Origin: Apostichopus japonicus
Lineage: Eukaryota; Echinodermata; Holothuroidea; Aspidochirotida; Stichopodidae
Assembly (NCBI RefSeq): GCF_037975245.1
Contig: NC_092578.1
Coordinates: 12,380,321-12,444,320, forward strand
Length of the DNA: 64,000 nucleotides
Direction: 5' to 3'
Part shown: positions 21,701 to 61,900 of the stretch, piece by piece
How the letters are laid out: the number at the start of each line of letters is the position of its first letter
Numbering within the stretch: the first letter of the stretch is position 1
Made by a program: the position numbers and the translations under genes
Notes under the pieces: model-generated
Databases searched by the model: none
Seen by the model: the letters and a program-made list of their open reading frames with translations, nothing else
Told to the model about the DNA's origin: nothing

Positions 21701-24700
21701 CTGTTTATGTTAAGTACATATCCATTGGCTAATTATCTGTCACGCTTTTCCCCGCACCCCTTCATCATTCTGTATTTGACTGGTCACGCATAGCAGAGTT
21801 CATTGTCCCCCGCACCCCTTCGATACTCATCATTCTGTTTTTTCTTTTACAAAATTTTAAAATGCTAAACTTTGGTAGCAATAGAGATGAACTATACCCT
21901 CCATAAACAAAAGTCTCTCCTGAAACAATGAACAATGCACTAAATGCAAATACTACACAACGTAGCAGTGCTATAAATAGTAACAGGGAGAAATGAGAAA
22001 GTGACACTGTACGGTACCATTCACCATTTTAGTAAATGACTGGTAACTTTACCTACCTGTATATTATTACCAGTTATTATGTACGGCAAGCGAGCAAAGA
22101 GTTTCACATTAAACAGCAGGTATTCAGTAAGTCTCACTATTCCAAGAAAGCAGTCATCAGTCACACTAATAAAGTGATACTGCAATTAAAATATAATGTA
22201 TTCAACTTAAAAGTTTCCTATAGGGGGTCAAAAAATACAAAACCGTACAGATCTGATTTGAAGTTCCTAAAGTGAGCTACTGTACCATTTTCACAATTAA
22301 CATACAGTGGTGTGGCTTGTGTCTTTTCTATCCCGTACATGAGATGTTGAAGTTGTGTGTTGAGGCAGACTTGGGGTTACTGGGGCAGACTTAGGGTTAC
22401 TTAGGCAGACTTGGGGTTACTTAGACAGACTTGGGGCTACTTACACAGACCTGGGGTTACTTAGGAAGACTTGGAGTTACTGGGGCAGACTTGGGGTTAC
22501 TTAGGCCGACTTGGGGTTACTTAAGCAGACTTAGAGTTACTAGGGCATACTTGGGGGTACTTAGGCAGACTTGGGGCTACTTAGGCCAACTTGGGGCTAC
22601 TTACACAGACTTGGAGTTACTAGGGCAGACTTGGGGCTACGTACACAGACTTGGGGTTACTTAGGCAGACTTGGAGTTACTAGGGCAGACTTGGGGCTAC
22701 TTAGGCAGACTTGGGGTTACTTAGGCAGACTTGGAGTTACTAGGGCAGACTTGGAGTTACTAGGGCAGACTTGGGGCTACTTACACAGACTTGGGGTTAC
22801 TTACAGTAGGCAGACTTGGAGTTACTAGGGCAGACTTGGGGCTACTGAGGCAGACTTGGGGCTACTTAGGCAGACTTGGGGTTACTAGGGCAGACTTGGG
22901 GCTACTTACACAGACTTGGGGCTACTTACACAGACTTGGGTTTACTAGGGCAGACTTGGGGGTACTTAGGCAGACTTGGGGTCACTTAGGCAGACTTGGA
23001 GTTACTAGGGCAGACTTGGGGCTACTAAGGCAGACTTGGGGCTACTTAGGCAGACTTGGAGTTACTAGGGCAGACTGGGGGCTACTTACACAGTCTTGGG
23101 GTTACTAGGGCAGACTTGGGGGTACTTAGGCAGACTCGGGGTTACTTAGGCAGACTTGGAGTTACTAGGGCAGACTTGGGGGTACTTAGGCAGACTTGGG
23201 GTTACTTAGACAGACTTGGCATTACTAGGGCAGACTTGGGGGTACTTAGGCAGACTTGGGGTTACTTAGGCAGACTTGGAGTTACTTGGGCAGACTTGGG
23301 GCTACTTAGGCAGACTTGGGGCTACTTAGGCCGACTTGGGGCTACTTACACAGACTTGGGGTTACTTAGGCAGACACTTGGAGTTACTAGGGCAGACTTG
23401 GGGCTACTGAGGCAGACTTGGGGTTACTTAGGCAGACTTGGTGCTGCTTAGGCAGTCTTGGGATTACCTAGGCAGACTTGGGGCTGCTTAGGCATACTTT
23501 GGGCTACAGTACTTACGCAGACTTGGGGTTTCTGGGGCATACTTGGGGTTACTTAGACAGACTTGGGGCTACTTACACAGACTTGGGGTTACTTAGGCAG
23601 ACTTGGAGTTACTGGGGCTGACTTGGGGTTACTTACACAGACTTGGGGCTACTTAGACAGACTTGGGGCTACTTACACAGACTTGGGGTTACTTAGGCAG
23701 ACTTGGAGTTACTAGGGCAGACTTGGGGGTACTTAGGCATACTTGGGGCTACTTAGGCAGACTTGGGGTTACTGGGGCATACTTGGGGTTACTTAGGCAG
23801 ATTTGGGGTTACTTAGGCAGACATGGGGTTACTTACACAGACTTGGGGTTACTTACACAGACTTGGAGTTACTTAGGCAGACTTGGAGTTACTGGGGCAG
23901 ACTTGGGGCTACTTAGGCAGACTTGGGGCTACTTAGGCATACTTGGGGCTACTTAGGCCGACTTGGGGTTACTGGGGCAGACTTGGGTTTACTTGGGCAG
24001 ACTTTGGGTTGCCATACTGTACCTCCACTTTTCTTTGGTTTTTTATCTTACGAGAGTGAATTAACAAAGTGAAATGTTCAAGTTGTAAGTGTAACCCTGG
24101 TGTCATGAATGCCGTGGTGGGCTGATTATTTATTGATTTCACTTGCTAGTTGTAGCAATTTGTGTGATATGTGTAAATAAGTGTAAGAGTAAACAAGCAT
24201 TCTCTGTCCCAGCTGGGTACAGGTAGGAGATTAGTTATGGTTATTTAACTTTCACATTTTTTTTGTAGATATCCATTGTTATATTCTCATCTCTCAGGAT
24301 GTACCCAGAGCCTGCAAAGGTGATGAAGCTTGAGGTTCGCTCTAGCTTTGTAGTATTTAGAAGAACAGTATACCCTGGGAAAGGGTAACAAAATAGTTTA
24401 TCCATTATCTCAGAGCTGGGGAAGGGAAGACAAATTTGTGACACAAATATTAACAAGGACTCATCCATGACCTAATTACTGATTGTATCAGTGGACAGCA
24501 TCTTGCCAGAAATAACCAATCGGATGGGGGGGGGGGGGCATAGGGGTAGTCATGTGACCAGCAGTGCAATAGCAATGATGCGATTCTGCCAAAATTCTGT
24601 CACTTTTTCCCATTGTGCTTGATTGACGCCATTTTGTCATTTTTTTATTTCATTTGTCTGAAATTTTGTCAGTGGTTTGTGTGAGTTGAGTTTTCATACA

Positions 24701-40500: not shown

Positions 40501-40957
40501 TTCGTAATCTGACTTTCTCTATCTCCTTTAGGTTATTGGTAACAGCTCAGTCGCAGTTCCCACTCATCTCTTCAAAGTTATCGCAGCAGAAAGTCCACAG
40601 ACACCAGGATCACCTGTCGCTGTGGGAGCTTTTATCGTACCCAACAAGCCAATAGAAGGCAGTGCCCAACTGGTTGAATATGAGGTCAAGTTAGAGGAGC
40701 TGGAAAAATCTGCTGGGATTTACTTTTTACCTCAACTACCAGCCTCAAAGAGAGTCGATTTGTGCTCTGTGGATTCTTGTAAACTAATCCCACAAGAAAC
40801 ATTGGAATTATTCTTTATTACCAGAAAGTTAGAAAATGCCGAAACGTTACAAAGATTAGAATCAGCGTGGAAGGACTTGGACAGAAGAAGCTTGATACCT
40901 GATGATTATATGATTAGTATATACAAGAAGAAAAAAGAAAGTCTGATGAATAAATAG
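35483..40957 (+). CDS. EXOG: EXOG, mitochondrial inner-membrane endo/exonuclease
   Basis: EXOG is a metal-dependent DNA/RNA non-specific nuclease of the His-Me-finger (endonuclease G) family that acts in mitochondrial DNA repair. Five exons join in phase to about 360 residues, against 368 in human. An N-terminal hydrophobic anchor follows a short basic start (FLNGFVSGTVCSAFAFIFY, residues 7-25). The catalytic motif is SRGHMAPAGDNKY at residues 140-152 with His143 as general base. The metal site is Asn174 and Glu182 in NNNGGFWNRLE. The EXOG-specific C-terminal region (CSVDSCKLI, then a coiled RKLENAETLQRLE and DDYMISIYKKK) is complete. All key residues are intact. The start is the first ATG, at 35483, after a stop-rich leader. 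It is divergent from AVL9 and convergent with CATIP. Confidence 0.96.
36102..36369. mobile_element. 268-bp MITE with 9-bp duplication and telomere-like core
   Basis: Inverted ends GTGGCTATTcTTACGACgAGT and ACTaGTCGTAACAATAGCCAC are flanked by TAGTTTATA at 36093-36101 and 36370-36378. Nine-base duplications are typical of Mutator-like elements. The core has two gcaactgcgcatg blocks and a run of ccctaa-type repeats (36214-36258). Confidence 0.75.
37524..37566. repeat. (TA)n microsatellite
   Basis: About 20 uninterrupted TA units. Confidence 0.98.
37723..37887 (+). CDS. EXOG: EXOG coding exon 2
   Basis: 165 bp, phase 1 to 1, acceptor aatgatag|AT and donor AAGG|GTAACT. It encodes LKYGIPDRGLDARLYENHVL then CYDQAKKTPIWVAEHI. 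An alternative in-phase acceptor six bases on (attcag|GA) is possible. Confidence 0.92.
37995..38080. repeat. Short ATGAGATTAA-type minisatellite
   Basis: Imperfect units of 15-21 bp such as tatgagattaaattta. Confidence 0.8.
38738..38877 (+). CDS. EXOG: EXOG coding exon 3, catalytic His motif
   Basis: 140 bp, phase 1 to 0, acceptor ttcgcag|GT and donor CAG|GTTAGT. It encodes HVSDYKGSGWSRGHMAPAGD and NKYSQ, including the general-base histidine. Confidence 0.95.
39275..39345. repeat. TAGTATAG microsatellite
   Basis: Alternating gtagtatagt and gtagtagtat units upstream of EXOG exon 4. Confidence 0.85.
39386..39580 (+). CDS. EXOG: EXOG coding exon 4, metal-binding residues
   Basis: 195 bp, 65 codons, phase 0 to 0, acceptor cgccag|GAT and donor GAA|GTAAGT. 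It encodes DAMEETFYYTNIVPQDVNNN, then GGFWNRLEMYCRDL and VRVISGPLMLP. Confidence 0.95.
40532..40957 (+). CDS. EXOG: EXOG coding exon 5 (C-terminus)
   Basis: 426 bp from acceptor cctttag|GTT to TAG. It encodes VIGNSSVAVPTHLFKVIAAE, the end of the nuclease fold (VAVGAFIVPNKPI), and the EXOG-specific CSVDSCKL helix region. Confidence 0.95.
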   Translation, partial: VIGNSSVAVPTHLFKVIAAESPQTPGSPVAVGAFIVPNKPIEGSAQLVEYEVKLEELEKSAGIYFLPQLPASKRVDLCSVDSCKLIPQETLELFFITRKLENAETLQRLESAWKDLDRRSLIPDDYMISIYKKKKESLMNK

Positions 40958-46742: not shown

Positions 46743-46997
46743 TCAACTTGCATAGGAAGCTTGCATCTGACTTTTCTTGAAAGGCGATTCCGGTCGTGGG
46801 ACGAATCTTGCCTCATTGGACGTAGCATAGGCGCTACCAGATTTTGTCGTTGAAGAGAAGGAAGCGAAATAGTCTGCGGCAAATGCGACAACATCTTCTG
46901 GCTTTCTGAGCAGCAGAAACTGTAAAAAGTCTGCAAGCAGAGCTTTTAACTCTGGGTGCCTTTTCATGTAGGTTGCATGGTCTCCTTTAAGTTCCTC
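46743..46997 (-). CDS. CATIP: CATIP last exon, docking-like domain
   Basis: 255 bp, 84 codons plus TGA, acceptor atttag|GAG. It encodes EELKGDHATYMKRHPELKAL, LADFLQFLLLRKPEDVVAFA and ADYFASF, an RIIa/DPY-30-type helix pair, then a Ser/Lys-rich tail. Confidence 0.92.
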   Translation of the reverse strand, partial: EELKGDHATYMKRHPELKALLADFLQFLLLRKPEDVVAFAADYFASFSSTTKSGSAYATSNEARFVPRPESPFKKSQMQASYAS

Positions 46998-49900
46998 CTA
47001 AATAGTCAAAGAAGAAGAAGATTAAAATGATGCATTATCAGTTTATAGGAAAGCAATTTATCGAATCAACAAGCATTTTTATTTCTTGAAAAGAATTTTG
47101 TGATGATGTGGAAGTTGCCAGTTTGGGATTGTATCATATTCCACCATGAAGACAAGAAAATCATGTAATATCTAATGTTAGTTTTTCTTCTTTCATCAGT
47201 GTTACAACAGGTACAAATACCTCAATAAAATATGTTGCTTTTCAAGAGGAATATCAGCACTAGTTTTCAACATCTACATCAACAACACCATAATAACAGA
47301 TGCACAATACTAGCATATGCAACTAGGTCTACCCTAATTTGCAGTTTGAATGACCGTGGATTAAAAACGTTTCTGTCATCAATAAGTTGGCTCATGATCA
47401 GTGGATGCCACCATTTTGAGTGAGAAGGAATAGCTAATATGGAACACAACACATGTACAGTATCTCATGGTTAGAGCAATAGACTTGTATAATAAAGAAA
47501 CTCAACCAGCTGCTTTGAAAGGAAAATCCAGAGGATAGTTTACTTTTTCTTGGGAATTTTTGTTTTTGTTTTCATCCAAAAACATTTTTGTCCAAATTTA
47601 TAATTGTAATCCTCAGTGTCATTAGAAATTTGTTAAATTCAATGCATCTTTACCATTATGAGGTGAAAAATGTATTTTGTGATAACATTGTATTGCTGCT
47701 GGAAGCATACTTGAATGGTAATATCTTCAATCACAAAAGGACCCACTGAAGGACTGTTTTTATCACACAGGGTACCTTCTTTCTCTATATTCAAGTGATG
47801 TTGACTTTCTCATATTAAAACACCATAGAAACGGGGAGAAAGTTACAACCAAGATGAGCCTACAAAGATTTGGAAATTTTTTTACATACATGGCAGAAAT
47901 ATCAAACTTGAAAACAATCACTCTTCACTTTTTCTTTCTAGTTTTGTTTTTCACAACAAATGTATACATTTGCACATGATAAACCAGAAGGCCGGAAAGG
48001 AACAATGGAGGCAAACTTTGAAAGAGCAGAAACATAGTTTGCCTAGTATGGAATTGCAATAGATTTCCTCTGGAGTGACAAACCTTATACAAATAAATGC
48101 CACATGTCTCACGCCATTTTAAAATTTCTATCACACTCAAACAGATCAAGTTTATTATTACCGAAAATTCAAAGTTTATGTCATGATAAAATGTACTTGG
48201 AAAAAGCAATTATACTTTGCCTCTCTGTTGCCCCATGTCCGTTACCTTCACCCCCTTCCTTTCCTCCTTATCTACTTCAATATTCTTCATCTTACTTTTC
48301 TGTCCAGAAACTTTGAATACAGCTGCATGTCTTCCTCCCAGTTGATTGGTTTCTTGGGAATGCTGATGGCAGCTCTCTGTTCATCTTTGTGGATTGGTGG
48401 TGGAAGAGCGAGTAACCTCATCATGACTGGTGAACCGACCTGTACACGACTTGTCAGATGACTAATGTTATGAAAACCAAAAATATGTATTAATGTTGAA
48501 TAATGTATCCTAAATAAGTATATTTATTTATATTTATATCTATTTATTTGCTTAGGGCTTTTGGTTATTGGTTAAATCCAACATGGTAACTTTGGCCCAC
48601 CTATATCATTGACTAGAAAATTTTGTTTGCATGAACTTGTTTCAGAGTAGAACTGTTAAAGTTGTTTCCACAATAGAAGCGGTCTGCAAATAGCATGAGG
48701 TTGTATTTCTGGCTATATTAAATCACTGCTAGGCTAACTTCAATTCCTACTTTACAAATAAATGCTCTGATGTGATTACTAATAAACCCTTGTTTGCAGC
48801 CTACCATTGGGAGAAGTCTTGAAAAAGTCAATATTGACATGGCAACTGTTAAACTTATGACCATTAATATTGGTTTTTGACACTTTTTGTCACCTGATTG
48901 AAGAGCAGATTCATGAATGAGATGAATGAAGGTTAGATGTCTCTTCAAAAGCATTGTTTTCAGCACATGAAATTCAAAACAGATGCTATTTTATCTTTAT
49001 CTACCATTCAGCTTCCTACCCATCTGACAGGTAGCTTGTTTCCCCTATACACACCCATCTCACCATCTTTATCTACCATTCAGCTTCCTACCCATCTGAC
49101 AGGTAGCTTGTTTCCCCTATACACACCCATCTCACCATCTTTATCTATCATTCAGCTTCTTACCCATCTGACAGGTAGTATGTTCCCCCTATACACACCC
49201 ATCTCACCATCTTTATCTATCATTCAGCTTCCTACCCATCTGACAGGTAGTATGTTCCCCCTATACACACCCATCTCACCATCTTTATCTACCATTCAGC
49301 TTCCTACCCATCTGACAGGTAGTATGTTCCCCCTATACACACCCATCTCACCATCTTTATCTATCATTCAGCTTCTTACCCATCTGACAGGTAGTATGTT
49401 CCCCCCATACACACCCATCTCACTATCTTTATCTATCATTCAGCTTCTTACCCATCTGACAGGTAGCTTGTTTCCCCTATACACACCCATCTCACCATCT
49501 TTATCTATCATTCAGCTTCTTACCCATCTGACAGGTAGTATGTTCCCCCTATACACACCCATCTCACCATCTTTATCTATCATTCAGCTTCCTACCCATC
49601 TGACAGGTAGTATGTTCCCCCTATACACACCCATCTCACTATCTTTATCTATCATTCAGCTTCTTACCCATCTGACAGGTAGTATGTTCCCCCTATACAC
49701 ACCCATCTCACTATCTTTATCTATCATTCAGCTTCTTACCCATCTGACAGGTAGTATGTTCCCCCCATACACACCCATCTCACCATCTTTATCTATCATT
49801 CAGCTTCTTACCCATCTGACAGGTAGTATGTTCCCCCCATACACACCCATCTCACTATCTTTATCTATCATTCAGCTTCTTACCCATCTGACAGGTAGTA

Positions 49901-52900
49901 TGTTCCCCCTATACACACCCATCTCACTATCTTTATCTATCATTCAGCTTCTTACCCATCTGACAGGTAGTATGTTCCCCCCATACACACCCATCTCACT
50001 ATCTTTATCTATCATTCAGCTTCTTACCCATCTGACAGGTAGTATGTTTCCCCTATACACACCCATCTCACCATCTTTATCTATCATTCAGCTTCTTACC
50101 CATCTGACAGGTAGTATGTTCCCCCCATACACACCCATCTCACTATCTTTATCTATCATTCAGCTTCTTACCCATCTGACAGGTAGTATGTTCCCCCCAT
50201 ACACACCCATCTCACTATCTTTATCTATCATTCAGCTTCTTACCCATCTGACAGGTAGTATGTTTCCCCTATACACACCCATCTCACCATCTTTATCTAT
50301 CATTCAGCTTCTTACCCATCTGACAGGTAGTATGTTCCCCCCATACACACCCATCTCACTATCTTTATCTATCATTCAGCTTCTTACCCATCTGACAGGT
50401 AGTATGTTCCCCCTATACACACCCATCTCACTATCTTTATCTATCATTCAGCTTCTTACCCATCTGACAGGTAGTATGTTCCCCCCATACACACCCATCT
50501 CACTATCTTTATCTATCATTCAGCTTCTTACCCATCTGACAGGTAGTATGTTTCCCCTATACACACCCATCTCACTATCTTTATCTATCATTCAGCTTCT
50601 TACCCATCTGACAGGTAGTATGTTCCCCCTATACACACCCATCTCACTATCTTTATCTATCATTCAGCTTCTTACCCATCTGACAGGTAGTATGTTCCCC
50701 CCATACACACCCATCTCACTATCTTTATCTATCATTCAGCTTCTTACCCATCTGACAGGTAGTATGTTCCCCCTATACACACCCATCTCACTATCTTTAT
50801 CTATCATTCAGCTTCTTACCCATCTGACAGGTAGTATGTTTCCCCTATACACACCCATCTCACTATCTTTATCTATCATTCAGCTTCTTACCCATCTGAC
50901 AGGTAGTATGTTTCCCCTATACACACCCATCTCACTATCTTTATCTATCATTCAGCTTCTTACCCATCTGACAGGTAGTATGTTCCCCCTATACACACCC
51001 ATCTCACCATCTTTATCTATCATTCAGCTTCTTACCCATCTGACAGGTAGTATGTTCCCCCTATACACACCCATCTCACTATCTTTATCTATCATTCAGC
51101 TTCTTACCCATCTGACAGGTAGCTTGTTTCCCCTATACACACCCATCTCACTATCTTTATCTATCATTCAGCTTCTTACCCATCTGACAGGTAGTATGTT
51201 CCCCCTATACACACCCATCTCACCATCTTTATCTATCATTCAGCTTCTTACCCATCTGACAGGTAGTATGTTCCCCCTATACACACCCATCTCACTATCT
51301 TTATCTATCATTCAGCTTCTTACCCATCTGACAGGTAGCTTGTTTCCCCTATACACACCCATCTCACTATCTTTATCTATCATTCAGCTTCCTACCCATC
51401 TGACAGGTAGTATGTTCCCCCTATACACACCCATCTCACCATCTTTATCTATCATTCAGCTTCCTACCCATCTGACAGGTAGTATGTTCCCCCTATACAC
51501 ACCCATCTCACTATCTTTATCTATCATTCAGCTTCTTACCCATCTGACAGGTAGTATGATTGCCAAGATGTAGGAAGTCCTTTGAAAGAGTGAATGGTCC
51601 TCTCAATTCCTTGCACTGTAACGTCTGATTCCCCAACCTTCTGGTGTCTTTCTTCTAAATTTTTCTATGAAAGAAACAAAACTATGAATTAAGTTGCCCC
51701 ACTTCATGTTTTTTTCAGAGTTCTTTTAAAACAGGTACTAACTAAGACCTATTATAAGACCAAACTGCAGGAGTTATCAGCTAGAATTTGACAAAACAAC
51801 AAACAAACGAATATTTACTGCAACTCTGGCTGGGTTTCCATGGGATGTAACATTTTCAGCTAGTATGATTGACATCTATACAATATACAGTACTGCAATA
51901 GCATAGCACAAATATCAACACAAAATGATACATAATGGAACACCCAATATATTTCAAAAATATACTCTATCCATAACTCTAGAACAGGGTTGTCCAACCT
52001 TTTGCAGAGGAGGGCCGCATGGAATGATTATGATGAAGGAGGGGGCCGCATGAACCCTACGCTCAATTTTTCGATTTTTTGCCCGAAGCACAAGGCAACA
52101 AAATGTCAGCACTGTGCGCGGAGCGCACTGATTTATTTACCTTCCTGATAAAACAGATGAATAAAGTCCAGCCGCCACCTCCCCCCCCCCTCCGCTGAGA
52201 GTATCACACAAACTAACCTGTATGCAGTTTTTTCAACCCAGAAGGTTCGAATGATTGATTATATAGCTTCAAATTGTTATAAATAAATCTGCTCACTAAA
52301 ATTTCGCACCGTAGAGCATCTCTGGCGGGCCGGACGCAACCCTGCGGCGGGCCGGACTTTTGCCCGCGGGCCGTAGGTTGGACAACCCTGCTCTAGAATA
52401 TCATCATTTTGTACAGAAACTGTTACCGTACATATTTGGAATTTGTGTAGTATTTTGCCAATTATGTTTTTCTATGTATGAGCAGATGCATTATTCCCTG
52501 GTAGTTTGTTGAATCAACTAACAAAACGTCTACTATCACATTCCACTAATTTTGACAGTTATCTGAGATTTATCTCCGTCTCTCACAGATGTGAAACTAA
52601 TACAAACAGAATATAAGATGACATGAATGAATAATGAAACACAGAACCCACTAAGCAATCGCTCATAAATATTCATGTACCTCTTACACCATAAAAAATA
52701 CAGCAACTCATTTTACCCAATTGCAGGAAATTTTAGGAGTATAATATTCATTCTACGGTTGTCATATTTGTGGTAGATCAGCATTGATGTTCCCCTATAC
52801 TGAATATCAGGTGTAGAAACATCCTTCTATGTGGGTGATTATTAATTGATCTGCAGTCATTACAATACTGAAGCTGTTTCCATGTAAATCAACCAAACTT

Positions 52901-55900
52901 GTGTCTATACCTTCTTGTGTTAATTCTGAGCATTCATGTACTCATGCGGCTAGAAAGTCACTACTCATTTTCAAATACAGAATCATAATCTAACTGAGCA
53001 ATGCACGCATCTTTAAAGTTGCATTTTACATTGTGTTGTCATCCTCACCATGCAATCCATATCAACACATTATTGGATTCACTTCAACATAGGATATAGA
53101 TATGTGTGTGTGTGTAGTAGTTGGCTGATCCTAAGAAGCATGTTCATTAACCATTAAATCCAATTCAAACAATATTGAGCACAACAAAGTTTTAAGCGAT
53201 CCTTTTACTTTCTCAAAAAATGGTAAATTTTTGTGTGGCTTATTTTTTTCCATTCCTGTTATGATTTAGGGGAATGAAGAAACTGAGGTTTTTCCTGGAC
53301 TTACCGTTCCTTTACTAAGACCAGAAAGATATTATTATGTAATTATTACCTTGTCACATCATTATCTTGTAAATGAAATGAATACTTACATAGGATGCAG
53401 TACAGAGAGCAGCTTCCGAATCGAAAGATAAAAAGTTTAGGTTTGAATAATTTTCTCCTTTTTTAATCATCACCCTCTGAAGAAGTAAGTTTGAACCTGT
53501 TGGTAGAAATGAAAATATATTTTGCAAATTTGAAATATCACAATACCATGTCAAGAATTTCAACACCAAATCTTCAATAAATTTCCATGACGACAGCCAA
53601 CAAATATACATAAAATTAATTTATTAATAGAAAAACAAATGCTTGGGCCACCCTGCTGCTTTGATTCACACAATGTAATGATGTCCTGCACTACAGCAGT
53701 GTGTACTAAAAAACAATTTACAAGAAAACTGGATTATCCAGACCTCTTTTATCAGGATCCTGGATTATCCAGATATGTGGATTATCCAGACTCCAAATCC
53801 AGCATTCATAATTCAATACTGCACATGCCTGTTCAGTACAGTCAACAAATGAAACTTTTCTTGTCGTAAACAACAAAGCACCTTTTGTACAGTTTTTTCA
53901 ACACTCATGCAACAACTGTAGGCAAATTACTATATTCCACATTATAAAACACATTAATTATGCTGGACATATATCAGGACATAAAAATGAATAACAAAAA
54001 ATCTAAAATTAAAGCAGATTTACCATGGGGATTGATGATTATGGTGAAAATTTCAGCAATATGGCCATTACTGTACTTAAAGTTAAGTTAATCCATCTTA
54101 AAACTTAAAATGCAGGTCTTGAAATGATCACAATCTGTAGAACTACACACTGCAGATGACGATGACCGTTTACACTGTCATCGGAAGGTAACCTCAATGC
54201 CTCCTAAACTCACTAACAATGCCACGCAGCAATTGCTGTTCCATTCCTCAATCAGCCTGCAAGCATTAAATAATAATTACTTGTGAATGGAGACAGTTCT
54301 AAACTTGGAGGAATATTCACATAGGACACACTGTACATTAGATTTGTTTTTGATGCAAACTAGTTACATATTGCATATTACTTGAACCCAATAACAAAGA
54401 ATTAGTTATTAGAAATGGAGTCATGGTGAGATAAGACCCACAGTTCAGATTGTGTCACAATCACGGATGACCTTTGCAACGATTTAACCTCCAATGTTCC
54501 ATAAGAACTTACTGTGATTCCAAGTGGCCGATACCTGAAAGAATCATCTTTTGACACAACATTGCTTGGGCAAAATACACTACTGTTACTACTATATTTG
54601 CAATTGAGACAATAGCTGTATTTTTAACACAGCCAGCAAATGAGAGACAACTATGCCCCCAAAAGACATGCTCATTTTGCTAATGTCAATGCGACTAAAA
54701 TGGCTCATAGATAAATACTTACTAAAGGAAACTTATATTCTTTTATAAGACAGGCATTTCTTGGTTTGATATGTTGTACAGTGCAGTTTGTAGCCCTTCA
54801 TATGTATATAACTAAGTAAGAATTCTGAGCATTGTTAAAAAAAAAAAAAAAAAATTAAAATAAAAACTTGTGAAAGGCACAAATCCAGTATGTGTGTATT
54901 TAACCACTAACAATCCAAATCTGTATTCAAGCAAGTGAGGCTGATATATTCTGATATTTATCTTACCTTCTGAAATGAACCCATTCATGGCCTCCACACT
55001 AAAGGTCTGTTCTGTTCTCGTGGTATTCTGATGTAGACAACATGAAAAAAGAGAAATTACTTGCAATGTAACTAATGTACCTGCAGTTTCCATCTACACT
55101 GTAATGACTAACAATGTAAAATCTGAAAAAATGCATACATGTGTGGAGTTAAGAATTCTAAAGGAAACGGATATAAGGATCATTGAGAGACCCATTTTTA
55201 GAGAGATATTTCGCTGGGAAGAATGGGTTATATAATGATATGCAGCAGGGATATATATTTTGCTTGCACTGATGCAGGATGAGACCTTGGAAACATTTCA
55301 AAGAGGTTGATAAGTATCCTCATGTTTGAGGTTTAATGTAGTATGCAGCATTTATCTCCATGCTCTATGCCCTAGACTTTAAAACATGCATCAGCTTTCA
55401 TATTTCTCTTTTCATCATATAGCTCTTCTTCCTTTGAGAATCACGGAAAGAAGCTTAATATATTAATTGCTTGAGCGTCAACACCAAACAAATCGCTTGG
55501 TCAAATCTCACCTTGATGTGATTTATTGCGTATTTGAAGATTTTGACTTTTGGCTAATTGCTTTTGTATGCAGGTTCATTAGAATGCATTATGTGGTTCT
55601 TGTTTGTTATGTTCAATGCTGTGTATTGCCTCTAATTGTAATTCTTGGAGCTGAATGGAACTCATAAAATGCATTACAAATATCCATCCAACCAGAAACA
55701 GACTTTTTGCATAAAGTCGGCATGCAGTAAGCTGGATCCCATTGTTCCATAATGTGCAGTTTGATTATCATAATATACCTGCACAGCAAATCGATATTAT
55801 ACTTGACTTAATCGATGAAAAAAATAGGGAGCATCGACTCAAAGTCAGATGCAAACACTGCATAATCATCAGCTAACAGTCTTGACTAAGAGGGTATTTG

Positions 55901-58900
55901 GAACAATTAAGGGCATTAAAGTAGATTTCTTATGGAAATGTTAGCATATACCATGACTAAGAAAAACAGTACTACTAGTGTTATCCTCTATAGACTTGCA
56001 TTAAACATTATCCATTGACATGAAGATGAGAATCAAACTTCAAATGTCGTCTCATGTTGAAAGCCTCAAGATGAAATGGCATTTATTAATTCAATTACTA
56101 TAACTTCTTCTGAGCTGAATTAGAATCATGTCTAGCTTTACCTCTCAAATTAGTTCCCTGTATATCCCTACTCTAATAGTACAGAACATATCCAACACAG
56201 AAGAGCCCTACCTTAACCTAAGATATTCTCGTCTGTCACACAGTTATTGCATTGATAATCTGAAAACTGCCACTTCCACACACTGCATATGTACAGAATA
56301 AAGGTTTGCACACTCCCATGTCTAACGTCAAAACTCTCCGTATTTCACAAAGGACTGATTGAGCAAATATTTCTTAGAAATTTGGCCCCTTTTGTTTTAT
56401 AACACTTGAGAGAAGTTCTTGCTTTGGAAATATGAAAGGTGAGAAAAGTTGATGATGAACACGAAACTCAAGTGAATCTCCTTGACATTTAGTAGAAAGG
56501 CCTGTCAAAGGGGTCCGTTAGATTGTGTCCTTTGTCAAGGAAGGCTGGCCAATGAAAAATTGTTGAATGCTGACTAACTTCACACTTGCTGGGAACAGCT
56601 TGACACAATACATTGTGTAGAGATGAATTGCTTTGCATTAATCAACTTACAAATTACAAAAGTTTTACACTTCCAAAATAGAGTCCTCATAAAATGTTGG
56701 GCAAAATTAATTGTGGAGAATAATTCCCAAAAGTGACTGGTTTTGGGATTTACGAGCGACGATACTTACCTGTCTCCCACTCCACATCTGCACTTTCCCA
56801 TCTACCTAACTACACATTGGAACGTTTTAGCACTGTGCCTTTGCTCCCCGCAACCACCCACCTACACCTCCTTCTGAATATACCAACCAGGAAGAAAGCT
56901 GAACCCTTTAATAGCAAACTCAGCTTAGCGTTTTAGAATTTTTGGGAATCACATCTTGGATCTTTTCGGACACAGGAACACTTCCCCATCAAATTCAAGA
57001 AGCACTCCATAACTATCCTTTCATTTTTACCATATTTTTCACATTCTTTGCTCTCCCTGTCTGGCTGTTTTGTCCGTACACCCGTTATACATAGTTTTTT
57101 ACAGGTATCAGTTGCATTGTATATTGTAGGCGTTGCCTTCCCGACTGTTTGCCGGTTGAGGCTTGGTCTTTTTGGTAGTCTTTCTTGGACTAGGCCCCTT
57201 GGTGCTACCCCTGTAGCCCGTTCACAGGATTCCTCTGGTCTGTGGTGCGGAGGATTTGCTTTACTTAGCGCGGGCGTGTCCTACCAAGTTTGTGTTTGCC
57301 ATTTGCAAACTTTGTGTTTGGTTTCTAACCTCCTACTGGGGGGAATGCTTGCATGTACACATGGCTTACAATTACCAGGCCTCGAGACTAGCCATGAAGT
57401 TTGCCTCTAAATTTATGTTGGCGGCAGAACTGCTCATGAGGCACCACCAATAACTCCTGGAAGAGGTAGAGCAAATTCTGGACCGGGAAGCAATCCAGAT
57501 CATGTGGCTGTTGGGCTCATCTATGGGCTCATCTATGACCAATTTGCCAGAATGTCTATCAAGTTAATCGAATCTAGATGAGCTAACATACTAGCTGCAA
57601 TGAGATGGCCTGAAGGAGAGACCCAAGAGAGGCGACTCCACCTTCCGATGGGAGATGAGAACCTGTTTGCAGAGGCTGTCCAGAGGGAGTTCACCAGGAG
57701 ACTCACAGAAACGACCTCGAAAATGAGCACGTAGAGACCGAAAGACCCCAGACCAACATCAGCGGGACCGTCCACCAGACCCAGACCTACCAGGGTTAGC
57801 TGCCGTGGTCGCAGCAAAACTCTACCTCTGGCCGACAGATGCAACATGGGTCATAGAGCAACTCCGCCAAGGTTTAGACAAGGCCAATCCTCAAGCTGGG
57901 AGGCTCAAAGCTCCACCCAACCGTTGAGTACCTCCAGACCGACAATGAGACGCGGGCGGATTGGACTCGACACACCTGGCACTCAGCTGTCCAGATCCTC
58001 CTTTGATGCCCGGCCTTGGGTGTGCCCACCCTAACACTGTCAACCTGATGGCAGGGGGAAGATTAATACACTATGTCCATCAATGGAAAATCTTGGGTCT
58101 GGTTGCTTGGGTGCTGGACGTGGTATCAATGGGATATCGCATAGAGTTTATCACCACACCTCACTTACCTCCAGAGGGCGGAGGAAGGATAACCACCACA
58201 ACACCGATGACCCGGACCACCAGAAATCCAGGCATTGTTGGACAAGGGCGTAGTGAGGACAACAGGAAGGGAGGTACCACTCTTCCTTTCGTCTTTCTTC
58301 CTCACACACAATAAAGTACAGTTCTGGAGGCAAATCCTGAACTTGAGGCCCTTAAACAGAGCGTTTATCGAACCAAAATACTTCAGGATGGAGACACTCT
58401 CCATCACCATTCCATCCCTCAACAGGGTAATGTGGGCATCGAGGATAGATCTGAAGGACACCTACCTTCAGGTACACATCCACCCAACACACAAATGTTC
58501 CTCGCATTCAACTACAGAGGAACAGATTTCAAATTCATCGCACTCCCATTCGGCCTTTTCACCTCACCGAGGGTATTCACCCAGGTAGCCAGTATGGCAG
58601 TTAAAGAGCTCCGCCACAGAGGACTCCCTCTTTGTATATCTACACTACTGGTTGGAGCTAGGTGAGTTGCACCAAGATGTGTCAAACAACACCAAACTAA
58701 CAGTAGACCTCCTGAGGAACCTAGGATGGGTGATACACAAGGAGAAATCAAAGCTGACACCGAGTCAGCAAAGCAAGTACCTCAGGGCTCACCCTGAATT
58801 CACTGAGGGATCGATCAGTCCGTCATCAGAAAGGGTTACTCAGCTCACACAGCTGGCCCTGCATGTGCTCAACAAATGCTTGTCGAAGGCAAAAACCTAG

Positions 58901-61900
58901 CTACAGCTTCTAGGCCTGCTGGCCAGCCTTGTAAACATCATTCCATGCTGCAGGTTGTGGATGAGGCCAATCCAAGTACATCTATTAACCTTCTGTCCCA
59001 ACGGGTCCAACCTCGAGAGATGAGTCCGTATATATCTCCATTAGACCCACAACATCTGCTATGGTGGGCAACTCCAAAGAACTGGGCCAAGGGAAGACCT
59101 TTCCACCAAGACAGGCTCCTAACATCAATCACTTCGGACGTGTGGAGCATAATCAATCTAAACACGTTTTTCTTCATTCCATTTTGCAAAGGCTTCAAGA
59201 TTCGTAAATCAGCTCTGCAAAGATAGTATACATCCACCATTCCTCCTCGTTATCTCTCAATTTATAACACTATAAGAGAATTAGTAAATGTTTGTGGTCC
59301 CCTGATGAGTCTACACAGCACATTTTACACAGCCACTTTCATTGATTGTAAATATTTGACGTTACACAACCACTTTCACTGATTGTAAATATTTGACGCG
59401 AAACAACAAGTACGGTTTGATATGGGAATCTACAGAGCAGTGAAGTGTCCTTGATAAGAGCAGGTAATGATGCAATCAAAGTTAAGTGGAACTCTTGAGA
59501 GAGTAAAAAAAAGGGACTCTCTGAAGAAACTAATCAGTGATTGCACCAGCAGACTATATACATATATATAAAGCATTGTCACATGACTGTCTGTATACCA
59601 ATCAAGTAAGGTCTCTGATAAACTAAAGCACATTTGGCTGTAGCACTGAGAGCAATTTAGAAAATCATCATATATGTTTGACAGTAACTCCACGAGTGCT
59701 GTAGTTCCGGGTTGTGGTGTTTACTGATGCTATTCTTGCTCTTCGACTGACTCTTAATGTAAACATTCATGATATTGAATTGTACATAAGTACCATGAGG
59801 GATAGGCCATGTCATCAATTGTAAACAGGAAATGGTGTCCAACAGAAAGAAATTGCAAAGGGCTCCTTCTGTTAGACTGCAAAAACAATGAAGAAAAAGG
59901 CGAAAAGTCTTTGTTCTTACCTCTCCTTGTGAAACGATTCTGTTCATGATGTATTGCCCGTCTTGTATTGTTACAAACGTCTTTTTATCCAAGTGATTGT
60001 CTTCAAGCTGTTCAAAGGAGCGAAAACAAAATGATTTATGGCATGAGCTATATGAATACAATTAATGAAAACAGCTGATTGCATGTATAAATAAAGTCAC
60101 ACAACCCTAAAAGGCTAAAGCACATCCTATCGGACCCACCATTCTTTCTCTTTAAAAATAGTAGTGACTTTTTCAAATGCTATAAGCTTATCCCCTCGTC
60201 CAAAATGATGTGCTTACATTACAGTACCTCATCTAAATGTTACACTTGTTTTAAATGTGTTCTGAATACAACATGTAAGAGTTACATGTTGCAAAGAATT
60301 AATGACATTTGCATATATAGAGGTGTATAGATATGCAGAGAGTTCTGTAGATGTTACATCTCGGGTGTATAGATGTTACATAGGGTTTTATAGATGTTAC
60401 ATAGCAGTCTATGGATGTTACCTTGGGTTCTACAGATGTTACATAGCAGTGTGGATGTTACATTGCTTTCTATATGTTACATAGCAGTCTATGGATGTTA
60501 CCTTGCTTTCTATAGATGTTACATAGCAGTCTATGGATGTTACATTTGGTTCTATAGATGTTACATAGCAGTCTATGGATGTTACAATTGGTTCTATAGA
60601 TGTTACACAGAGGTCTATGGATTTTACTGTACATATGATTCTCTCCATGTTACATATTCTCTACAAGTCACATCATTACCTGTAAATTGTATGGAGTGTT
60701 GCTGCACAGAGTTTACTAAATGTCGCATACAGTTTACTAGAAATTTTTCTTACATATTGTAATGTCCACAACATTACGTCAGTCAATGCCAGCATGTTTA
60801 GTAAACCAACACTTACCTTAACATACTCATGGTGCTGTTGTTCCAAGGTTTTCAAATTATGTGTAACATATGCTAAGAAAACAAAAGAAGAGGAATTAGT
60901 CAATCAAAACCGTTCTGTCTAAGGTTGAAATACCTTACTTCCTTTGAAGACTCCAAAATGTAGGAAATGTACGTACAAAACCACATTTCTCTTTGACAAG
61001 CAAGGGAACCACTTTATCAAAGATTGTTGAATGTACTACTCTATATACTATATAATATGGTGAGACCAGAATTAACAACTTCACTATTTAACTATAAGGA
61101 ATACACAGGATGTCTTAGAAGGTCAATATGACAATTTATTCTATGTCATCTGTTTCAACTAGAGCAGGGTTTCCCTAACTTTATCCCCCTGCAAACCCCC
61201 TGTGGATGTCAGAGTTGTCCACAAACCCCCAACTTTTCGAGACATGATCTGAGTCATTATTATACTATAATACGCATAACAGTGCTTCGTAAAAGATCAA
61301 GTTCAAAGTGTAATATTGTAATGAAAAAAAACAAAAGATGAACAAATATTTATTTGGAAACTTGAAGATCAGTTCATGAATTGTACCACGCATCGATTAC
61401 ACATCACACACGATGAGACTATGGAACGCGAAAAGAGTTTGTCGACAGGTACTACTTTTGTTCATTACTAACTTATATGATATATCAGATTTTAGTTCAA
61501 CAAAAAGTACTCTAGTTTTGACTTTCAGAACGGTGTCACTGGGATGGATTCACGCACCCCCTGGGGGTTCGTGCACCCCAGAACTAGAGGGCACAGAATA
61601 CCACTTGTTCCATAGCTCAATGAACACCATCTAAAGATCATAATTAGATGCTATTGCCACACCGTCCATGTACCTGTGACAGATGTTCCCATGGGTACAC
61701 TATCAATGGTTCCATGGCTGTTTGCATGAACCAGTAGACAATCTTGGCCCTTGTGTCTGGTGGGTTCTACTGTGATGGAGAACTCTCCGAGTTCTTTACC
61801 AGTGTCAGAAATAGTAACCAAACCGTCACCAAATAACGATTCTTTAACTTCCTCAGCAGCTTCAAGAAAAGAAAAAAATAATTAACTAAAAGTGTAACAG

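Follow-up and report, generated by a model that had tools for sequence, protein, structure and literature searches.

The last 19 nucleotides of a coding exon, together with the 5' splice site that follows them, are repeated about 36 times head to tail in what looks like the echinoderm copy of the cilia gene CATIP. By its sequence features the array is a member of a published kind, the 'mirages' of amphioxus, and we put the probability at roughly 0.78 that it is a tolerated by-product of tandem duplication in a gene that normally splices from the donor next to the exon. This reading draws on the anatomy of the array, an exon end placed by protein homology, the donor motifs, the position of an in-frame stop, and the rate of similar arrays in a sample of three gene families of the same genome.

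The gene lies on the minus strand of the window, by which we mean the whole stretch of 64,000 nucleotides that was analysed, and its relevant features are as follows.

48992-51558, minus strand: 72-bp minisatellite, 35.7 copies, each whole unit containing duplicated exon-end sequence with its 5' splice site
51540-51664, minus strand: CATIP exon 5, 125 nt, its last 19 nt being the first part of the array (CATIP_N match, homology and assembly from DNA)
51534-51539, minus strand: authentic donor GTAAGA of intron 5 (exon assembly)
48462-51539, minus strand: CATIP intron 5, 3,078 nt, 83% of it array (exon assembly)
48296-48461, minus strand: CATIP exon 6, 166 nt, whose acceptor joins exon 5 in frame (homology and exon assembly)
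46743-46997, minus strand: CATIP exon 7, with the stop codon and an RIIa match at 46997-46746
53390-53496, minus strand: CATIP exon 4, 107 nt
61672-61875, minus strand: upstream CATIP exon, CATIP_N match about 6-73

Exon 5 matched positions 177-218 of the Pfam family CATIP_N (E 4.3e-13), and a genome search for CATIP_N returned five matches, all within the window, two of which missed the cut-off (E 0.02 and 0.36). The exon is entered in phase 0 and left in phase 2, and it joins in frame to the exon starting at 48461. Across this join, from YYLSDG to HLTSRVQVGSP, the protein aligned without gaps to the solved CATIP chains 9fqr_Xh and 9d2f_c. Because the homology runs across the junction of exons 5 and 6, the exon end at 51540 that the first-pass annotation had proposed stands, on homology rather than cDNA. 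Exons 4-7 assembled from the DNA form a single open frame through to the stop codon; upstream, the gene model is incomplete and lacks a short exon that should lie between exons 3 and 4. An upstream CATIP intron also carries a 406-bp insertion (51985-52390) in which hAT-like inverted ends and a flanking 8-bp direct repeat, TTCTAGAG, were recognised by eye. Elsewhere in the window, an opposite-strand neighbour gene (40532-40954, plus strand) is EXOG-like, with Endonuclease_NS and Exog_C matches; reverse transcriptase-like open frames seen by eye at 57200-59250 are a probable retroelement fragment; and another large minisatellite, of 20 bp x 81.8 copies, lies at 22363-24010.

Tandem Repeats Finder (TRF) reported 48992-51558 as one tandem array of period 72, with 35.7 copies, 97% matches and 0% indels, the copy number being that of a single assembly and one assembled haplotype. 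The boundary motif, CAGATGG followed by GTA[A/G]G, occurs 36 times on the minus strand with all 35 spacings exactly 72, and the first of the 36 is the donor of the CATIP exon at 51540-51664. It had been claimed that a 72-bp minisatellite amplifies this exon-intron boundary about 35 times, each unit holding 19 exonic nucleotides and a 5' splice site. TRF and the regular spacing of the motifs confirmed the amplification, and a count of TACCTGTCAGATGGGTA[AG]G on the minus strand bore out the content of the unit, with 29 GTAAG and 7 GTAGG, the splice signal GTA[A/G]G being present in 36/36 copies. The 19-nt exonic part common to the units (CATACTACCTGTCAGATGG) is intact in 30 of the 35 array copies, the other five differing at two adjacent bases, and variation at 7 of the 72 positions divides the 35 whole units into 12 types. 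The head-to-tail minisatellite is situated within a CATIP intron, and its unit crosses the true exon-intron boundary, as placed by protein homology and not by cDNA. When a 144-nt query of two units was searched against the 671.6-Mb genome, with very common words skipped and the best candidates alone scored, all 21 matches fell in the CATIP array or its exon end, and a dispersed satellite was rejected in the absence of any match away from them. An internal repeat of the unit, AGATGGGT, considered as the trace of an older half-unit, was dropped since an exact repeat of at least 8 appeared in 90 of 1000 shuffles. The plus strand is open from stop to stop between 48937 and 51570, and the 878 open codons across the array might be taken for an antisense repeat protein. 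However, at least one of the six frames was open in tandem for 96% of 2000 shuffled 72-mers, so that such openness is expected by chance, and we rejected this candidate as extremely improbable.

The length of the array is 35 x 72 + 47 nucleotides. The 47 nt found at both of its ends consist of 19 exonic and 28 intronic nucleotides, and the remaining 25 nt of the unit are absent after the last copy. In the simplest history, a 47-nt segment across the 3' boundary of CATIP exon 5 was probably duplicated along with a 25-nt filler, which set the period at 72 nt, and the array then grew by whole units, through unequal exchange or slippage, to about 36 copies, of which all but the first 19 nt would be intron. 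The 47-nt remainder would also be explained by loss of sequence, at a later stage, from the far end of the array. Slippage starting at the exon edge, as suggested in the first-pass annotation, is possible; the length of 35 x 72 + 47 also fits a 47-nt duplication with a 25-nt filler. The exon is the likely source of the repeat, since it encodes a stretch that aligns with CATIP and the copies serve no frame beyond the stop.

The statement that no named system of this kind existed proved to be wrong. Minisatellite-like tandem duplications of exon-intron boundaries, under the name of mirages, have been published for the amphioxus Adh3 and globin genes (PMC3087553), and PGBD5 and troponin C have been added to the mirage genes (PMC3902484); the cases named in the accessible text are Adh3, the globins BflGb6 and BflGb9, troponin C and PGBD5. 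According to the same text, the Adh3 units are 10-72 bp long, mirages are found on either side of exons and show length instability, and RT-PCR suggests normal splicing with no interference (PMC3087553). Amphioxus mirages and the CATIP array are alike in that minisatellite-size tandem units span an exon-intron boundary, and the mirages have splice signals in many of their units, with donor and acceptor sides both represented (PMC3087553, PMC3902484). They differ in extent, as BflGb6 is described with 3 and 6 units in two haplotypes whereas the CATIP array has about 36 copies that are 97% uniform, and in host, the mirages being known from amphioxus and the CATIP array from an animal whose mitochondrial code and gene order are of the echinoderm type. 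Its COX1 gene, on contig C35, shows AAA at usual asparagine positions and ATA at usual isoleucine positions, and the frames behind it look by eye like nad4L, COX2 and ATP8; AAA for Asn together with ATA for Ile, and this gene order, are characteristic of echinoderms. Besides the C35 copy, COX1 matches in broken form were obtained on the minus strand of the 31-kb contig G000 C29 (14745-31219), which may represent a nuclear copy or a misassembly of mitochondrial DNA. Duplication of a splice-site segment to give extra sites, as in CATIP, is also part of intron gain by tandem duplication (the Rogers model and Zhuo 2007, cited in PMC3087553; BMC Evol Biol 10:156), but in CATIP an existing intron has been lengthened and no new intron has been made. 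A human minisatellite that provides multiple donors in an interferon-induced transcript is announced in the title of Turri et al. (1995), and it shares with the CATIP array a 5' splice site repeated at the exon end. Among titles and the starts of abstracts, with most subscription journals outside coverage, no report of echinoderm boundary arrays was found; the examined text of an earthworm metallothionein paper has intronic minisatellites and no boundary array.

Splicing in silico from array donors 1, 2, 3, 10 and 35 gave an identical stop directly after YYLSDG in 5/5 cases tried. As the stop precedes the first array copy, the truncation holds for the remaining array donors by construction, and the claim that use of any later donor brings in a TAA in frame was thus supported. 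The TAA is, however, no special switch: read-through from the phase-2 end of exon 5 gives GGG TAA, as any phase-2 intron starting GTAA reads NNG TAA. The human system is said to involve IFI6, with 12-bp units, several donors in use and proteins of slightly different length. Later donors in a system of that type would give translatable longer proteins, whereas each of the five CATIP array donors tried leads to the stop after YYLSDG. Recursive splicing was rejected, since CAG sits 4 nt upstream of the donor and splicing there leaves ATGG.

Predicted pairing with U1 was -9.2 kcal/mol for the GTAAG copies and -8.9 kcal/mol for the GTAGG copies, within the range of -4.5 to -12.5 predicted for the five other scored CATIP donors. 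The local sequence marks out no single donor, so that position must decide. Exons ending at array donors measure 197, 269, 341 ... nt against 125 nt for exon 5, and by the principle of exon definition the first one or two donors should therefore be favoured. Since definition of the 125-nt exon starts at its own acceptor, the spliceosome would most likely settle in general on the donor next to the exon, and the array would be spliced out along with the rest of the intron. If a later donor were now and then chosen, the transcript would carry the stop directly after YYLSDG and would be expected to decay. It is also conceivable, albeit unlikely, that the array acts as a splicing rheostat, in which the array donors compete with the real donor and copy number sets the share of CATIP transcripts with a premature stop and subsequent decay. 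The 36 donors have a common context from -15 to +5, except for position +4, and nearly equal predicted U1 pairing; the stop does result from the use of later donors; and the title of Turri et al. (1995) speaks of a human minisatellite that provides multiple donors. Against this, the stop is a consequence of intron phase, normal splicing is reported for the amphioxus mirages (PMC3087553), and, as described below, donor constraint is absent in the CATIP array and boundary arrays are no commoner than under random placement. The regulatory role that had been proposed for CATIP copy number is possible as far as the anatomy of the array goes.

The exon end ATACTACCTG and the donor together form a near-palindrome (CTACCTGTC A GATGGGTAG) at 51535-51558 and in the array units, and the same exon end resembles, with one base missing, what we take to be the 5' end of U1 snRNA. 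A hairpin over the donor may have promoted the duplication and may leave the array donors mostly masked, an explanation that we regard as very unlikely. The hairpin has a predicted energy of -4.6 kcal/mol with GTAAG and -7.8 kcal/mol with GTAGG, and a palindrome as long occurred in 86/2000 shuffles of the GTAAG unit and 32/2000 shuffles of the GTAGG unit, which is a modest P for a feature spotted after the fact. Moreover, the real donor sits in the same hairpin as the array donors would, and a fold of 235 nt proved unexceptional (z -1.29), on which ground strong RNA structure was rejected.

We surveyed the same genome for arrays spanning exon ends in three gene families. The best-scoring exon matches listed were 70 at 30 loci for myosin head, 57 at 30 loci for Cpn60/TCP1 and 126 at 24 loci for kinesin; 115 of these 253 (230 ends) were usable in a merged sample of 66 regions and 241,621 bp, and the other 138 either fell beyond the retrieved loci or lay too close to a region edge (within 100 bases). 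TRF rows with a period below 15, a length below 60 or a score below 100 were excluded. The sampled regions held 55 array clusters, amounting to 9.8% of bases, and arrays spanned 8 of the 230 exon ends (3 on 35 myosin, 3 on 39 CCT and 2 on 41 kinesin exons), a rough rate, as the sample is not random but drawn from conserved exons with high scores in three families. Random shifts of the arrays within their regions predict 8.45 spanned ends (sd 2.5; probability of at least 8, 0.63). All eight alignments were inspected and a duplicated boundary was seen in 8/8; two near misses, R19 and R27, lie past the exon end and are not among the eight. Six arrays are on the donor side, with units of 31, 46, 53, 113, 121 and 163 bp and 1.9 to 38.5 copies, and two on the acceptor side, with units of 124 and 168 bp and 3.0 and 1.9 copies; this ratio of 6:2 does not differ significantly from the 4.2:4.2 expected. 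One CCT subunit gene (L037, G000 C21) has donor-side arrays on two exons, at 396-1253 (121 bp x 7.1) and 1717-2257 (46 bp x 11.8), and another CCT gene (L041, G000 C17, minus strand) has one of 31 bp x 38.5 copies at 315-1531. No array in the sample engulfed an exon, where 5.5 were expected (P 0.001), and none lay inside one, where 0.7 were expected; the overlap of arrays with exons was 440 bp, the expectation being 2,071 bp. Taken together, arrays are kept out of exons, and at exon edges they are neither enriched nor depleted, which matches the prediction of tolerated duplication; with no excess at boundaries, nothing points to a mechanism that acts there. When the alignments of the six sampled donor arrays were read by eye, an in-frame stop lay ahead of the next donor in 5/6. 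L041 is the exception: its next donor would add 31 nt free of stops but change the frame, and the reading then runs straight into a TAG.

In the CATIP array, the donor window is no less variable than the rest of the unit (0.022 vs 0.020), and no special constraint on the donors of this array was found. Across five aligned donor arrays (CATIP and four of the six sampled, with L030 of 163 bp and L074 of 113 bp left out of the seven known), the GT columns were invariant with a nominal P of 0.023, and a test of the 6-column donor core gave P 0.46. In L041, GT was constant in 39 aligned units despite a mean mismatch of 9%. Outside the GT test, inspection by eye showed that GT is lost in the second copy of the L074 array and that the printed copies of the L030 array keep CAGGTGAG. 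The invariant GT columns could mean that donors are retained, which stays a lead, and homogenisation from a selected first copy, the one with the real donor, may equally keep GT in the other copies. A broader proposal would be that boundary arrays, present at a few percent of exon ends, retain donors that are sometimes used, copy number setting the loss of transcripts to premature stops for each gene and individual, with CATIP as the extreme; we find this quite unlikely. In the reading that we prefer, a mirage left by tandem duplication, the CATIP array would be tolerated and not maintained for function.

The more useful result is that further arrays of this kind occur in the same genome, at a rate accounted for by random placement. 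The CATIP case, together with eight more from a small sample, suggests that mirages are no peculiarity of lancelets. The 36 near-identical donors of CATIP offer a natural test of whether the 5' splice site is chosen as the one nearest the exon, as the one nearest the acceptor, or by chance; with a collection of such genes, cases differing in copy number, unit length or exon overlap could be compared. Boundary arrays would also provide raw material for models of intron growth or gain by tandem duplication.
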